Source: a virus
IMG/VR virus record: IMGVR_UViG_3300027971_000184
Coordinates: 1 to 27,360 of that record
Length of the DNA: 27,360 bases
Direction: 5' to 3' (one strand)
Under the pieces are notes generated by a model, which ran no database searches, was not told the DNA's origin, and was given only the letters and a program-made list of their open reading frames with translations. Shown in pieces: positions 20,868 to 26,157 of this stretch. Made by a program: the position numbers and the translations under genes. Position 1 is the first letter of the stretch, and every line of letters starts with the position of its first letter.

Positions 20868-21925
20868 TGGCACAAGGCGGAATTCCTACAACAAAAGAAC
20901 GAAGCGGCATTTGGAATTTAAAAAATATTCGAAATGCACAAAACAACGCTGAATACGGACAGTCAAACCTATACGACATTGAGTTACTACTAATCGGTGG
21001 TGGCGGTGCTGGTGGCGGTTGGACTACGGGCGGTGGCGGTGGAGCGGGTGCAGTTGTTTACGCAAACGGACTTTCTGTTAGAAGCGGTTGTGCATACCCA
21101 ATCACAATTGGTTCGGGTGGGGCGCCCACCCATCAAAATGACACAATCAATTCTGGCGGTGCAAACTCAACGTTCACGTACACTGGCGGTGCGCTTTATC
21201 CAGGAAGTAACGTAGTCATCACAGCACTCGGTGGTGGCGGTGGTGGTAACGGACCAGGACTTCCTGGCTCTTATTACGGACCAATAGGTGGTGGTAGCGG
21301 CGGCGGTGGGGGGGGATATAAAACTGGAATGACTTCACCTGCATTTGGCTCCGGAAGTAATCCATACGGATGTCCAGACATAGGTGATGGTAGAGCGCAC
21401 TGGCCATCAAATTTTGGATTTTTACCTGGAATTCAAGGATTTGGTAATGATGGGGGTAATAACACCACTCAAAGTGGTGGCAATGGTGGTGGAGGTGGTG
21501 CTGGAACCCGAGGAAGTGATGCAAGTTGCACAGGCAATGGAAATGGCGGTAGAGGTTTAGTATTCTCGATTTCAGGCTCAACAGTAGGCTATGCAGGCGG
21601 TGGTGCTGGTGGAGGATTCAACTCCAGTTCGATTAATCAAGGCGGTACCGGCTTTGACGGTGCTTCTCCTGTATGGGCACAAGGTCCGGTTCCGGGTGGT
21701 AATCCTGGTTCTTGTGCGCCATGTGCGCCATGTGCAAATAGAGGTGCTGGCGCATCTGGCGTGAATTCATTCAGCACTTGTCATACTGGCGCAACAGGTG
21801 TTGCTATTATTAAATATGCTGGATTTCAAAGAGGATCAGGCGGAAATACATGTGTAACATGTGTTGGCTCAGTAGCAGTAAATACTATTCACACATTTAC
21901 TGGTTCTGGAACATTTACAGCATAA
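20867..21925 (+). CDS. Glycine-rich tail fibre adhesin with clustered cysteines, 352 aa
   Basis: A receptor-binding protein candidate. After a short leader (residues 1-40), YDIELLLIGGGGAGGGW begins a glycine-rich body with repeated GGGG and GGAG runs through residue 275. This composition is typical of polyglycine-II sandwich adhesin domains, as in the gp38 tips of T2-like and S16 phages, and of many marine phage fibres. GATGVAIIKYAG near 307-318 and the final TIHTFTGSGTFTA are the usual closing strands. Nine cysteines lie at residues 75, 169, 221, 283, 286, 289, 305, 329 and 332. The last six form CAPCAPC plus C and CVTC, which could bind metal or make disulphides. The start overlaps the previous stop. 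Its G+C and GGT/GGC use are higher than neighbours because of the glycines. Confidence 0.8.
   Translation: MAQGGIPTTKERSGIWNLKNIRNAQNNAEYGQSNLYDIELLLIGGGGAGGGWTTGGGGGAGAVVYANGLSVRSGCAYPITIGSGGAPTHQNDTINSGGANSTFTYTGGALYPGSNVVITALGGGGGGNGPGLPGSYYGPIGGGSGGGGGGYKTGMTSPAFGSGSNPYGCPDIGDGRAHWPSNFGFLPGIQGFGNDGGNNTTQSGGNGGGGGAGTRGSDASCTGNGNGGRGLVFSISGSTVGYAGGGAGGGFNSSSINQGGTGFDGASPVWAQGPVPGGNPGSCAPCAPCANRGAGASGVNSFSTCHTGATGVAIIKYAGFQRGSGGNTCVTCVGSVAVNTIHTFTGSGTFTA
21713..21739 (+). repeat. 9-base tandem repeat encoding CAP-CAP-CAN in the adhesin
   Basis: TGTGCGCCA occurs twice exactly (21713-21721, 21722-21730), followed by the related TGTGCAAAT. It encodes Cys283-Ala-Pro-Cys286-Ala-Pro-Cys289-Ala-Asn. 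Slippage would add or remove one CxxC step at a time. Confidence 0.85.
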
Positions 21926-21940
21926 CTTAGGATAAAAGAA

Positions 21941-22366
21941 ATGGCAAATTTTGCAAAATTAGATGAAAACAATGTTGTAATAGATATGCTTGTTGTTCGC
22001 AATGAAGATATGTTAGATGCAAATGGCAACGAAGTTGAACAAAAAGGTATTGATCTATTAACAGCATTGACTGGACACTCTCATTGGAAACAATATTCAG
22101 TATGGACCGAATATGGTGAACACAAACAAGGGCGTACTCCAATAAGAAAAAATGCGGCTGGAAGAGGAATGACATATGATGCAACAAGAGATGCATTTAT
22201 TCCTATTAAGCCGCCAGATTGTGTATCTTGGGTTTTCAATGAAGACAAGGGTGCTTGGGAGCCTCCAATACCTCGCCCTCCATTATCACCAGATACAAAA
22301 GGTCCTGCAATGTGGGTTGAAGCCTTAGGAAAATGGATTACACATGAAGAGTATTTTGCCAACTGA
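21941..22366 (+). CDS. Conserved marine phage protein, probable fibre-associated, 141 aa
   Basis: A 141-aa protein starting MANFAKLDENNVVIDMLVV, with a RNEDMLDANGNE stretch, then GHSHWKQYSVWTEYGEHKQG, RKNAAGRGMTYDATRDAFIP and DCVSWVFNEDKGAWEPPIP. The MA.FAklDenNvV...vVv.Ned..D..G.e, kqtS.....g......rkn.Ag.G.tYd...daFippkp..sW..ned...WepP pattern is a very common small protein family of marine T4-like phages, encoded near tail fibre genes. I know of no proven function. The C-terminus here is longer than usual and ends in MWVEALGKWITHEEYF. It lies 15 bases after the adhesin, with GGATAAAAG as ribosome binding site. Confidence 0.75.
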   Translation: MANFAKLDENNVVIDMLVVRNEDMLDANGNEVEQKGIDLLTALTGHSHWKQYSVWTEYGEHKQGRTPIRKNAAGRGMTYDATRDAFIPIKPPDCVSWVFNEDKGAWEPPIPRPPLSPDTKGPAMWVEALGKWITHEEYFAN

Positions 22367-22403
22367 TTGCCCAACAATAATATATTAAATTGAGGATGAT
22401 AAT

Positions 22404-22802
22404 ATGACTAGAAGTGCTGAATATTTAATTGCGAATCAACAAAATATTGATGGCAAAAGTATGAGATACGGTATAGAAACTGCAATTGAAGCATTACGAC
22501 CTGGCGCAAAATATGTGTTAAGTGGTGGCAAAGAAAAATTCTTAGGTTGGAGATGCCCAAATAATTCTGAGCCTCCAACTTGGGAAGAAGTTTTAGAAGA
22601 ATTTGAAAGACAAAAATCAATTGCAGATCACTATCAATATGTCTTTGACAGAACTGAAGAATATCCTGACGGATACAAACAACTAGAATTATTATGGGAT
22701 GCAATTGATCAAGAACTTGATTTGAAAGATTCTGAATGGTATCAACAAATCAAACAAATCAAACAAAAATATCCAAAACCAAGAACCGAAGCACCTGAAT
22801 AA
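22404..22802 (+). CDS. Small conserved phage protein with C-terminal YPDGYKQL...KYPKP motif, 132 aa
   Basis: A 132-aa acidic protein. The N-terminal half reads MRYGIETAIEALRPGAKYVL, then GWRCPNNSEPPTWEEVLEEF. The C-terminal third reads EEYPDGYKQLELLWDAIDQE followed by WYQQIKQIKQKYPKP. The R..yP....QLd.LwhaiD.......fy..ik.iK..yPKP motif is widespread at the ends of small tail-associated phage proteins, though no function is established. A GAGGATGA ribosome binding site precedes the ATG, and the upstream spacer is 37 AT-rich bases. It is followed after 14 bases by the oxygenase gene, so this and the two flanking genes probably form one transcript. Confidence 0.72.
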   Translation: MTRSAEYLIANQQNIDGKSMRYGIETAIEALRPGAKYVLSGGKEKFLGWRCPNNSEPPTWEEVLEEFERQKSIADHYQYVFDRTEEYPDGYKQLELLWDAIDQELDLKDSEWYQQIKQIKQKYPKPRTEAPE

Positions 22803-22816
22803 GTAAGGTTTATATT

Positions 22817-23389
22817 ATGCAAAAAAACTTACAAGCGTATTTGAAAAGAATACCCAAATTTCTATCGGCCGAAGTTTGTGATGAAACGATAAAAGACAAT
22901 GAAAATTCAAATTGGGAAGAACATCATTGGGCTAGTTATTCTGAAAAAACTGAGAGTGAAAATGCTTTAAGGGGTTATAAAGAATTAGATGTATGTCATG
23001 CGAATCCAAAAACATACAACTACATTTTTGAAAGAATTCATAGTGCGATACATTCATACTATACACATCTTGATCTTCCTTGGTGGAAAACGTGGAATGG
23101 TTATACACCATTAAGATTTAATAAGTATTCTGAAAACACAATAATGTCAGAACATTGTGATCATATCACTAGTGTATTTGACGGCACTAAAAAAGGCATT
23201 CCAACGCTAACAGTTTTGGGTATGCTTAATGATGAGTTTGAAGGTGGTGAACTTGTTCTTTGGCAAGATACAGTTATACCATTTGAAAAAGGTGATCTAC
23301 TAATTTTCCCATCAGTCTTTTTATATCCACACAGAGTTGAACCCGTAACAAAGGGCGTTCGACATTCTTTTGTTTCTTGGGTTTGGTAA
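22817..23389 (+). CDS. 2-oxoglutarate/Fe(II)-dependent oxygenase (prolyl 4-hydroxylase-like)
   Basis: A 190-aa dioxygenase of the P4Hc/2OG-FeII superfamily, which uses 2-oxoglutarate, O2 and Fe(II) to hydroxylate a substrate. The iron ligands are visible as His113-Cys-Asp115 in SEHCDHITS and His172 in LYPHRVEPV. Arg182 in GVRHSFVSWVW is placed to bind the 2-oxoglutarate carboxylate. The core strands LTVLGMLNDEFEGGELVLW and FEKGDLLIFPS fit the double-stranded beta-helix. Such genes are common in cyanophages and pelagiphages but their targets are mostly unknown. It lies directly after the adhesin group, so a virion or host surface protein is a possible substrate; DNA or a metabolite is the alternative. 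The gene looks intact with all catalytic residues. It is followed by the gp13 promoter hairpin. Confidence 0.88.
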   Translation: MQKNLQAYLKRIPKFLSAEVCDETIKDNENSNWEEHHWASYSEKTESENALRGYKELDVCHANPKTYNYIFERIHSAIHSYYTHLDLPWWKTWNGYTPLRFNKYSENTIMSEHCDHITSVFDGTKKGIPTLTVLGMLNDEFEGGELVLWQDTVIPFEKGDLLIFPSVFLYPHRVEPVTKGVRHSFVSWVW

Positions 23390-23397
23390 CTAGATAT

Positions 23398-23430
23398 ATC
23401 TCCTTTTATAAATAGAATGAAAAAGGAGAT
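23398..23430 (+). promoter_or_regulatory. Perfect 10-bp hairpin enclosing the late promoter and sequestering the gp13 ribosome binding site
   Basis: ATCTCCTTTT (23398-23407) and AAAAGGAGAT (23421-23430) are exact inverted repeats around a 13-base loop. The right arm holds the AAGGAG ribosome binding site of gp13, whose ATG is at 23434. The loop holds most of the late promoter core. RNA reading through from upstream can fold and hide the ribosome binding site. RNA begun at the late promoter starts near the right arm and lacks the left arm, so the site is free. T4 genes such as e (lysozyme) and the I-TevI gene are known to be controlled this way. Confidence 0.8.
23407..23414 (+). promoter_or_regulatory. 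T4-type late promoter TATAAATA before gp13
   Basis: A perfect TATAAATA core that begins on the last base of the left hairpin arm and ends 19 bases before the gp13 ATG. The expected start of transcription falls at about 23420, leaving a leader of roughly 14 bases that contains AAAAGGAGAT. Confidence 0.82.
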
Positions 23431-23433
23431 GAA

Positions 23434-24177
23434 ATGGCAAAACCCGCATCAAGAGAAGAATTCAAAGAATACTGTCTCCGTAAATTAGGCAAACCAGTCA
23501 TTGAGATTAACGTAGATGACACTCAAGTAGAAGATAGAGTTGACGAAGCACTTCTATATTGGCAAGACTATCATTTTGATGGGTCTCAAAAAACTTACAT
23601 TGCACATCAAGTAACTGAACAAGATGTTACAAACAAATATGTTGATATTCCATCTACAATAAATGGCGTCATCAACATATTCAACATTGGCGACAGTTAT
23701 TCAACAAACAATCTGTTTAACATGCGATATCAAATTGCATTGAACGATCTGTACGCATTCAATACCACAAACTATGCACCATACTTTATGGCACTTCAGA
23801 ACGTTGCGCTTGCTGAAGAATTGTTTGTGGGTAGACAATCTCTAAGATATAATCGTCACGGCAATCGTTTATACATCGACATGGCATGGGCAGAAAAAAC
23901 TACAATTGGTGAATACATTATCATTGAAGCATACGAAGGTGTTGATCCTGATGTGTACACAGACGCATGGGCTGATTGGTGGTTACAAGACTATACAACA
24001 GCACTCATTAAAAGACAATGGGGCGATAATCTTAAGAAGTTTGAAGGACTTTCAATGCCAGGAGGCGTAACATTTAACGGGCAAAAGATTTATGATGAAG
24101 CGGTTGATGCAATCACTAAACTAGAACAAGAAATGATTTCTTCATTTAGTTTGCCTGTTACAGATATGTTTGGATAA
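23434..24177 (+). CDS. gp13: Neck protein gp13
   Basis: A 247-aa neck protein (T4 gp13 is 309 aa), which with gp14 forms the collar between the packaged head and the tail. The N-terminal helix has EFKEYCLRKLGKPVIEINVD and DRVDEALLYWQDYHFDGSQK, a strongly conserved opening of the family. The middle has DIPSTINGVINIFNI. The C-terminal half has YIDMAWAEKTTIGEYIIIEA and WADWWLQDYTTALIKRQWGD, then FEGLSMPGGVTFNGQKIYDE. The LPGG.tfnGq.i..EA...i..Le.e pattern is the usual C-terminal hallmark. Ribosome binding is by AAGGAG in the hairpin described above, so expression is probably restricted to late-promoter transcripts. The gp14 start follows two bases after the stop. Confidence 0.88.
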   Translation: MAKPASREEFKEYCLRKLGKPVIEINVDDTQVEDRVDEALLYWQDYHFDGSQKTYIAHQVTEQDVTNKYVDIPSTINGVINIFNIGDSYSTNNLFNMRYQIALNDLYAFNTTNYAPYFMALQNVALAEELFVGRQSLRYNRHGNRLYIDMAWAEKTTIGEYIIIEAYEGVDPDVYTDAWADWWLQDYTTALIKRQWGDNLKKFEGLSMPGGVTFNGQKIYDEAVDAITKLEQEMISSFSLPVTDMFG

Positions 24178-24179
24178 TC

Positions 24180-24992
24180 ATGGCTCGAAATAGATTTTTC
24201 AATCAGTACACTAGAGTTGCGGGAGAGCAATCTGTACTGGAAGACCTTATTATTGAATCCATAAAGATATATGGTGTTCAGGGATATTATCTTCCTAGAA
24301 ATTATCCTGGTCTAGATCAACTCTACATGGAAGATGTAAATTCAAAGTTTGAAGATGCACTTGACATAGAGATGTTCATTAAGAGTTATGATGGATTTCA
24401 AGGACAACAAGATTTTATGTCAAAGTTTGGTTTACAAATTGACGAATCTATCACATTTGTTGTATCACAAAAACGTTTCACTCAAGCACTCAAACCAAAT
24501 CTTATAACAGAGTATGGATATTCATACTTAGATGAAACTGGAAGTATATTACTTACCGAAGAAGGTTATGATTACGATTCTATTATAAGACCAAGAGAGG
24601 GTGATTTAATTTGGATACCAATGCTTGGTTACATGTATGAAATTAAATTTACAGAAAATATTGAAAACTTCTTCCAGTTAGGTAATCTATACACATACGA
24701 AATGCGTTGCGATAGATACGAATATTCTAACGAAGAACTCAATACAGAAATTACTGATATTGATAATATTGAAACTCAATACAGTCTTTCAACAACAAAC
24801 AATGACAAATTATTGGACGAAAACTCTGAGTTGTTCTTGCTTGAAGATGGAACGTTTATCGTCAACGAAGGCAATGTTGTTCTTGCAGTTGAAGCACAAG
24901 CAGACAATGAATTCATCGGACAGAAGATCATTAATGATGATATTCTAGATTTCTCAGAACAAAATCCATTTGCGGATTCAAGGACTTACTAA
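24180..24992 (+). CDS. gp14: Neck protein gp14
   Basis: A 270-aa protein close to T4 gp14 (256 aa), the second neck component, which closes the portal vertex and provides the tail docking site. Diagnostic stretches are RNRFFNQYTRVAGEQSVLED (residues 3-22), ESIKIYGVQGYYLPRNY (27-43) and FIKSYDGFQGQQDFMSKFGL (63-82). FVVSQKRF and IRPREGDLIWIPM follow. The pattern eqsLledLi.EsIkiyG....YlPR......d...gEd..s.f..a..iE.yi.....f.G is the gp14 signature. A 30-residue acidic stretch around residues 178-205 may be a flexible loop. It is tightly packed between gp13 and gp15. Confidence 0.91.
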   Translation: MARNRFFNQYTRVAGEQSVLEDLIIESIKIYGVQGYYLPRNYPGLDQLYMEDVNSKFEDALDIEMFIKSYDGFQGQQDFMSKFGLQIDESITFVVSQKRFTQALKPNLITEYGYSYLDETGSILLTEEGYDYDSIIRPREGDLIWIPMLGYMYEIKFTENIENFFQLGNLYTYEMRCDRYEYSNEELNTEITDIDNIETQYSLSTTNNDKLLDENSELFLLEDGTFIVNEGNVVLAVEAQADNEFIGQKIINDDILDFSEQNPFADSRTY

Positions 24993-24994
24993 CT

Positions 24995-25720
24995 ATGATG
25001 TTCGGTCACGATTTTTATCACGGCACATTAAGACGTTATGTCATAATGTTTGGCAATCTATTTAATGAAATTCAAGTTGAACGATATGACTTGAATGGCA
25101 ATAAAACACAGACATTGAATGTGCCTATTGAGTATGGTCCAAAGCAAAAGTTTGTTACAAGAATTATTGCAGACCCAACATTGAACCGTGAAATTTCAAT
25201 CACGGTGCCTAGACTTGGGTTCGATTTTACGTCAATGTCATATGCGCCAAGTAGAAAATTAAATAGCGCACACAAATACACCCTAGGACAAGATACAGGC
25301 GGCACAGATTTTAACTTTGCATACACGCCAGTACCATATGACTTTAACTTTTCATTGTATGCATTCGTAAAAAATGCAGAAGATGGCACACATATTATGG
25401 AACAAATTGTTCCATTCTTCACACCAGATTGGACTGTAACAATGAAGATGATTCCTGAATTGGGAATCAACATGGATATACCAATTGAGTTAACGAATGT
25501 AACTTCAGATGATACTTATGAAGGAGACTTTGATTCACGTAGAGTTATAACTTGGCAACTAGATTTTATTGTTAAAGGCTATCTATTTGGACCAGTTAAG
25601 AAATCTAAATATATTGATAGGGCAGATATTACTTCTAAGATTGAAAATCTTGATGTGTCTATACAAACATTCACTGGTGACTATAACTTTGACATTACAA
25701 AAACAACAACTGAATCATGA
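24995..25720 (+). CDS. gp15: Tail sheath stabiliser and completion protein gp15
   Basis: A 241-aa protein (T4 gp15 is 272 aa) that forms the hexameric cap at the top of the tail and binds the neck. The start region FGHDFYHGTLRRYVIMFGNL, then LNVPIEYGPKQKFVTRI, PRLGFDFTSMSYAPSRKL and PVPYDFNFSLYAFVKNAEDG are the conserved parts. IVPFFTPDWTVTMKMIPELG and WQLDFIVKGYLFGPVKKSKY follow. The YHgtlRkyv..FG.lFn.I, VPi.YgpkqkfL.R, P....f......Y...RK pattern is characteristic. Two in-frame ATGs (24995 and 24998) are possible starts; the first is taken because it is nearest the gp14 stop. The last codons overlap gp16 (ATGA). Confidence 0.91.
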   Translation: MMFGHDFYHGTLRRYVIMFGNLFNEIQVERYDLNGNKTQTLNVPIEYGPKQKFVTRIIADPTLNREISITVPRLGFDFTSMSYAPSRKLNSAHKYTLGQDTGGTDFNFAYTPVPYDFNFSLYAFVKNAEDGTHIMEQIVPFFTPDWTVTMKMIPELGINMDIPIELTNVTSDDTYEGDFDSRRVITWQLDFIVKGYLFGPVKKSKYIDRADITSKIENLDVSIQTFTGDYNFDITKTTTES

Positions 25721-26157
25721 AAACTCCTATTGACACTAAATTGAATGACATTTTTGACATGCAAACTACTGTCATAGAACAAACATTGCCTACTGTAAAA
25801 GAAATAACTCCAGTTGCTAAACAAACTGATATGTCATCAGATAGACCTAGTGATGAATCAATTGATGCAGATTACGAATATGCAAGAGAGAATTTAAAAT
25901 TGTTCATTGAACAAGGCAAAGTTGCTATGGAGAATATCATATATCTTGCAAAAGAGGGTGAATCTCCAAGAGCATATGAAGTTGTTGGACAGTTGATTAA
26001 AACACTTTCAGATACAAATAAAGATTTGCTAGACTTAGGTAAAAAAGTTAAAGACTTAAAGAGTAAAAAAGACGATACACAACAACCACAACATGTGACA
26101 AACGCATTGTTTGTCGGAAGCACAGCAGAATTGCAAAAATTGATTAGCAGAAGATGA
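25717..26157 (+). CDS. gp16: Small terminase subunit gp16
   Basis: A 146-aa protein (T4 gp16 is 164 aa). It recognises the concatemeric phage DNA and regulates the large terminase. The first 45 residues are variable and polar. Residues 48-115 form the long antiparallel helical hairpin (DADYEYARENLKLFIEQGKV, then AKEGESPRAYEVVGQLIKTL and NKDLLDLGKKVKDLKSK) that builds the oligomeric ring. The DyeyaRenl..li..G..ai......a.es.hPRayEVv..li k.....nkdLl.l.kk...L pattern matches the T4-like family. The C-terminal NALFVGSTAELQKLI is the segment thought to touch the large subunit. It overlaps both neighbours by ATGA. Confidence 0.9.
   Translation: MKTPIDTKLNDIFDMQTTVIEQTLPTVKEITPVAKQTDMSSDRPSDESIDADYEYARENLKLFIEQGKVAMENIIYLAKEGESPRAYEVVGQLIKTLSDTNKDLLDLGKKVKDLKSKKDDTQQPQHVTNALFVGSTAELQKLISRR

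Follow-up and report, generated by a model that had tools for sequence, protein, structure and literature searches.

Why would the late promoter of a core structural operon lie in the loop of a hairpin that holds the ribosome-binding site (RBS) of the operon's first gene? The question is raised by the gp13 locus of IMG/VR record IMGVR_UViG_3300027971_000184, of which positions 1-27,360, the whole stretch of 27,360 nt analyzed here, are referred to as the window. The gene of a gp13-like neck protein (23434-24177, + strand), recognized by tblastn through a full-length match at 56% identity to the neck protein of phage DLP6, is followed by gp14-, gp15- and gp16-like genes (24180-26157, +) and by gp17, encoding the large terminase subunit, whose start is at 26154 (+) and whose end lies beyond the window. 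On its 5′ side lies a co-directional 2OG-Fe(II) oxygenase gene (22817-23389, +; Pfam PF13640, E=1.5e-12), whose stop codon is 7-8 nt 5′ of the left arm of the hairpin. This arm, ATCTCCTTTT (23398-23407, +), is complementary to the Shine-Dalgarno region of gp13, and the right arm, AAAAGGAGAT (23421-23430, +), includes the gp13 Shine-Dalgarno motif GGAG (23425-23428), located 5 nt 5′ of the gp13 ATG at 23434. The T4-type late promoter core TATAAATA (23407-23414, +) occupies the hairpin loop, its first base coinciding with the final base of the left arm. A sequence-only reading of this DNA had described this arrangement, with ten perfect base pairs and one G-U pair, and its positions turned out to be exact: the arms are 100% complementary over 10 bp, and an extra U-G pair joins 23397 with 23431. 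From T4 spacing, late RNA is predicted to begin at 23419-23421 (+).

Folding with and without the left arm, as the sequence-only reading had proposed, separated the two RNA forms clearly. The RNA carrying both arms (23360-23460) folds at -26.2 kcal/mol with z = -3.56, and 0 of 200 shuffled sequences folded as well, whereas RNA starting at 23419 or 23421, and hence without the left arm, has no notable fold (z about -0.1 to -0.5). The computed cost of opening the region from the Shine-Dalgarno sequence to the AUG is 11.5 kcal/mol in the read-through RNA and 3.3 kcal/mol in the late RNA, and for the right arm with its GGAG (23425-23428) it is 10.9 kcal/mol compared with 1.7 kcal/mol without the left arm, in agreement with the earlier claim that the gp13 Shine-Dalgarno sequence is sequestered in read-through RNA only. 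For the T4 e gene, a proven case, the same computation gave 14.8 versus 1.9 kcal/mol for the opening from Shine-Dalgarno sequence to AUG. When the left stretch was shuffled 20,000 times, a 10-bp match to the right side arose 26 times; random 18-mers of the window gave one in 21 of 50,000 cases.

Several other roles for this region were considered and set aside. There is no T run 3′ of the stem (GAAATGGC stands there) and a standard terminator scan calls none, so the hairpin is not an intrinsic terminator; Rfam returned no match above the gathering score in the window or in the relatives L001 and L023. The same late-promoter octamer stands before an RBS at 1344, 11892 and 20470 in the window, and the left arm was rejected as an extended promoter element, being absent from these sites and from every other late promoter in the window. 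It was also rejected as the Shine-Dalgarno sequence of a leftward gene, comparable to the divergent T4 26/51 pair, the minus strand having no suitably spaced start codon. The palindrome AGATATATCT does lie at 23392-23401 (no strand given), where the sequence-only reading had placed it, but the competing fold suggested for it was dropped: the palindrome is probably irrelevant, and we consider it incidental, because the closest relative, L001, lacks it and retains both arms. On the + strand, the standard scan found no terminator-like site in 21804-23433. A terminator-like fold of about -11 kcal/mol at the oxygenase 3′ end, present in the window and in L001 according to our own scan and not called by the standard one, was disregarded because this stretch encodes the end of the oxygenase domain.

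We think that the hairpin probably acts as a translational insulator of gp13 that senses from which promoter an RNA originates. Read-through RNA from the upstream gene would carry both arms, the gp13 Shine-Dalgarno sequence would be paired and initiation blocked, whereas RNA from the gp13 late promoter would start at the right arm and keep the Shine-Dalgarno sequence open; it would be spared because the promoter sits between the arms. Translation of the neck, packaging and terminase operon would thus follow its own promoter and be independent of the variable tail or cargo gene that happens to stand upstream. The 2-nt gaps or 4-nt overlap between the genes that follow gp13 make a coupled operon plausible and, judged from this anatomy, a shut-off of gp14-gp17 through coupling to gp13 is plausible as well. 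This reading builds on the anatomy and the fold difference, and further on paired arms of unrelated sequence, arms that match gp13 despite changes of the upstream gene and an association with co-directional upstream genes, all computed here; what we infer is where the late RNA begins, that read-through RNA exists and how translation is affected.

Alternatively, the hairpin could be a timing switch, in which early or middle RNA reaching gp13 stays silent until the late promoters fire. The anatomy is the same as that of T4 e and I-TevI, where the longer early or middle RNA is silenced (PMC3014915, PMC2988022), and the sequence-only reading had expected gp13 to be delayed during development. The analysis does not support this expectation. 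In the window, gp13 is preceded by genes for the baseplate, the tail and cargo, the late octamers mentioned above stand before three of them, and nothing points to early transcription; most likely, therefore, any read-through RNA is late as well, which weakens the case for a delay. In relatives, too, the upstream gene is often tail-fibre-like. We regard a timing switch at this locus as unlikely.

The comparison with T4 is instructive also for the insulator reading. As in T4 e, the late promoter is situated between the arms, the right arm is the Shine-Dalgarno sequence, the late RNA is without the left arm (as predicted here) and the computed opening energies of long and late RNA differ to a similar degree. 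In T4 e, the hairpin guards against early lysis from early or middle RNA, whereas here the upstream genes are of the late type and the hairpin is at the head of a neck and packaging operon. RBS-sequestering hairpins have also been described for T4 I-TevI, I-TevII, I-TevIII and segB and for Aeh1 mobE (PMC2988022), the T4 genes e, soc, 49, 39, 25 and 26 are listed with a sequestered RBS, and several of the described structures have a late promoter inside (PMC3014915, PMC2988022). As in I-TevI, I-TevII, I-TevIII, segB and mobE, the RBS of gp13 would be sequestered in read-through RNA and freed by the late promoter, but those are homing endonuclease genes in early or middle units and gp13 is a core structural gene; with T4 soc, 49, 39, 25 and 26 it shares a structured initiation region of a late gene in long transcripts. 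An early or middle source of the read-through RNA is typical of the T4 cases, not part of the mechanism, and is not seen here, where tail and cargo genes with late octamers lie upstream. Applied to T4 as a positive control, our scan recovered e, mobC and the divergent leaders at 106061 (+) and 106010 (-); it did not detect soc and so overlooks some known cases. Among the T4 precedents that the sequence-only reading had invoked, e and I-TevI match in their anatomy, while soc is listed with a sequestered RBS and was nevertheless missed by the scan.

In the divergent T4 leaders (106010-106061, L391), each gene's Shine-Dalgarno sequence is the anti-Shine-Dalgarno sequence of the other, and a late promoter lies in the loop of either hairpin, on the strand of that hairpin; this pair differs from the gp13 element in being divergent, with each arm serving both strands. 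Directly 5′ of T4 gp13, the same scan found no late promoter. At the T4 wac/13 junction (L390:33850-33945), a GC-rich hairpin, GGGGCCGCAAGGCCCC, is located directly 5′ of the gp13 Shine-Dalgarno sequence. A limited search of the open literature found no description of a promoter-in-loop hairpin at gp13, and the element is probably a known mechanism in a new place and with a different purpose. The T4 hairpins of this type protect a lysis gene, homing endonuclease genes and a number of other late genes. In many uncultured T4-like phages, the device stands, with arms of unrelated sequence, before an operon of core structural genes, which suggests a simple rule by which variable genes can be plugged in before essential operons without disturbing them.

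The gene slot just 5′ of gp13 is variable among hairpin bearers. The nearest gene encodes a 2OG oxygenase in the window and L001, a kinase-like protein in L003, a papain-like protease in L023, the sialic acid synthase NeuB in L208 and tail-fibre-like proteins in L124, L225, L231 and L235, and the left arm thus matches gp13 and not the neighbour. This bears on translational coupling, in which ribosomes arriving at the upstream stop codon would melt the left arm and gp13 would be made in proportion to the upstream protein. The 7-8 nt between stop codon and arm in the window, and 0-10 nt in many relatives, would suit such a role. Yet hairpin bearers have gaps of anything between -15 and +29 nt, an arm at +18 to +29 should be out of reach of a terminating ribosome, and a fixed ratio to the product of a non-conserved gene makes little sense. 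Coupling is weakened by both the varying distance and the inconstant neighbour, and we consider it quite improbable.

With the hairpin as an insulator, the operon could be shielded by two routes, a terminator that would stop incoming transcription or a hairpin that would leave the incoming RNA untranslatable for gp13. Among tree rows that are related to each other, one or the other element was present in 35/84 with a co-directional upstream gene versus 2/23 where that gene is oppositely oriented (Fisher p=0.002), and in the clade of the window in 22/29 versus 1/9 (p=0.0009). The few phylogenetically independent pairs nearly all point in the same direction, too few for significance (median p=0.125). 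Hairpin and terminator never occur together in the window clade, and they replace each other in two sister pairs, with the hairpin in L008 and a terminator in L170, and with the hairpin in L124 and a terminator in L119, whose gp13 proteins are identical. Relatives that keep the promoter and the Shine-Dalgarno sequence and have lost the left arm, which the sequence-only reading had named as the finding that would tell against it, are indeed many. The outcome is mixed: those in the window clade mostly have a terminator or an upstream gene of opposite orientation, but overall 49 of the 84 co-directional gp13 loci have neither element at the thresholds used here, and insulation is therefore not obligatory. 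In cyanophage Syn1 (L386, GU071105; ~545-595), an intrinsic terminator before gp13, AGTCCCTGCCTG-ATAAATA-CAGGTAGGGACT-TTTTG, has the late promoter core as its loop.

We compared ~200 distinct gp13 upstream regions in all, and four IMG/VR scans yielded 171 distinct ones. In about 136 of these 171, NATAAATA is found within 60 nt of the ATG, and a late octamer of the same type precedes gp13 in most relatives. The left arm was complementary to its own RBS (p<=0.05 versus shuffling) in 22.6% of the regions from the four scans. The arms differ in sequence between lineages and still pair, for instance GAAGATTCCTTGTTG/CAACAAGGAATCTTC in L023, GAATTTCCTCCA/TGGAGGAAATTC in L003 and TCACCTCTGA/TCAGAGGTGA in L456, and the late octamer lies between the arms in relatives as well. 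L001, whose gp13 is 95% identical to that of the window, has kept both arms, the left one with a one-base insertion, and the 7-8 bases between stop codon and left arm differ between the two. A pattern search in 15 relatives found no exact copy of the left arm plus promoter.

The search for compensatory change that the sequence-only reading had suggested hence returned different arms with the pairing kept, and an arm-swap permutation over 104 clusters supports this result: 13 own duplexes reached -12 kcal/mol or lower, compared with a permuted mean of 1.27 and a maximum of 7 in 10,000 permutations, and the mean own duplex energy of -6.82 was below that of every permutation (minimum -5.84). A further 38 distinct leaders came from an extra scan of one marine clade, and 55% of these had an arm at p<=0.05. 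A double change within this clade distinguishes L423, with AACTCCAGTCATT/AATGACTGGAGTT (AGTC/GACT), from L439, with AACTCCAACCATT/AATGGTTGGAGTT (AACC/GGTT); in the marine-clade alignment both sides have changed at 3 pairs, and the true register scored above all slid registers, although some double-change measures in this clade, clade B, were not beyond shuffles. The dyad might also be a protein operator at the promoter, or an element of RNA processing or mRNA stability. Either role would be compatible with an inverted repeat flanking a promoter, and I-TevI represses its own late promoter via an overlapping operator (PMC2988022). However, a fixed operator is disfavoured by arms that differ in sequence between lineages and yet remain complementary, and the stem lacks the T run of an intrinsic terminator. 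Stems of 6-18 bp are also short for RNase III, and we judge these functions very improbable.

Within genomes, the arm is largely confined to gp13. In 13 records, the window and 12 relatives, 127 late octamers stand before an RBS and an open frame, and the arm was present at 7/10 sites classed as gp13 by sequence pattern, one of the three arm-less ones (G008:22157) looking misclassified, versus 3/117 other sites, the latter being the meaningful figure because several records had been picked for an arm at gp13. A fortuitous match of AT-rich DNA to a Shine-Dalgarno sequence, although short matches of this kind are common and 7% of swapped arms reach -9 kcal/mol, is extremely improbable in view of the arm-swap permutation, the recurrence in many lineages, the specificity for gp13 within the same genomes and the retention of the arms in the window and L001. 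The distribution among relatives is patchy, and 13 changes of state are counted for the hairpin along the gp13 tree, so the trait was often gained and lost. In the cultured phages DLP6, Cr30, phiM12, phiN3, Melnitz, P-TIM40, pf16, RHph_I1_18, P-RSM1 and P-SSM2, no late promoter was found directly 5′ of gp13; HTVC008M and Moby have the octamer and no arm (HTVC008M tested, Moby by eye), and in Mosig the octamer is accompanied by an AU-rich arm that is weak (p=0.28). That most cultured relatives lack a late promoter directly before gp13 counts against the insulator reading.

A second leader with a late promoter in a hairpin loop was noticed at the portal gene gp20 of relatives. There, the late octamer is enclosed by TTACGCA/TGCGTAA, followed by GCGTAATAG, a terminator and the start codon. 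The terminator reads GGGGG-CTATTACG-CCCCC-TTTT, and its loop can pair with GCGTAATAG, a possible antiterminator. An example is L553 (IMGVR_UViG_3300009163_000099, ~610-700), and others are L315, L331, L348 and L362 and 54 further distinct leaders (L555-L632). The pattern was present in 55/55 distinct leaders fetched, one of which is truncated by the end of its contig; the motif occurs exactly once per record in 7 of 15 records, and the leader matches no Rfam family. In computed folding, the antiterminator is favoured with the polymerase at the loop and the terminator in the finished RNA, and the leader looks like an attenuator that would tell read-through RNA from promoter-started RNA. We tentatively raise the possibility that phages of this clade generally insulate by enclosing the late promoter in a hairpin loop, a device that would sense the origin of the RNA and act on translation at gp13 and, through terminator and antiterminator, on transcription at gp20; if this were true, core operons would ignore RNA coming from variable neighbours. 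Both partners of the gp20 pairing have changed in L331 (TGTAG/CTAC), and in L601, L609, L622 and L631 the pairing is kept through G-U.
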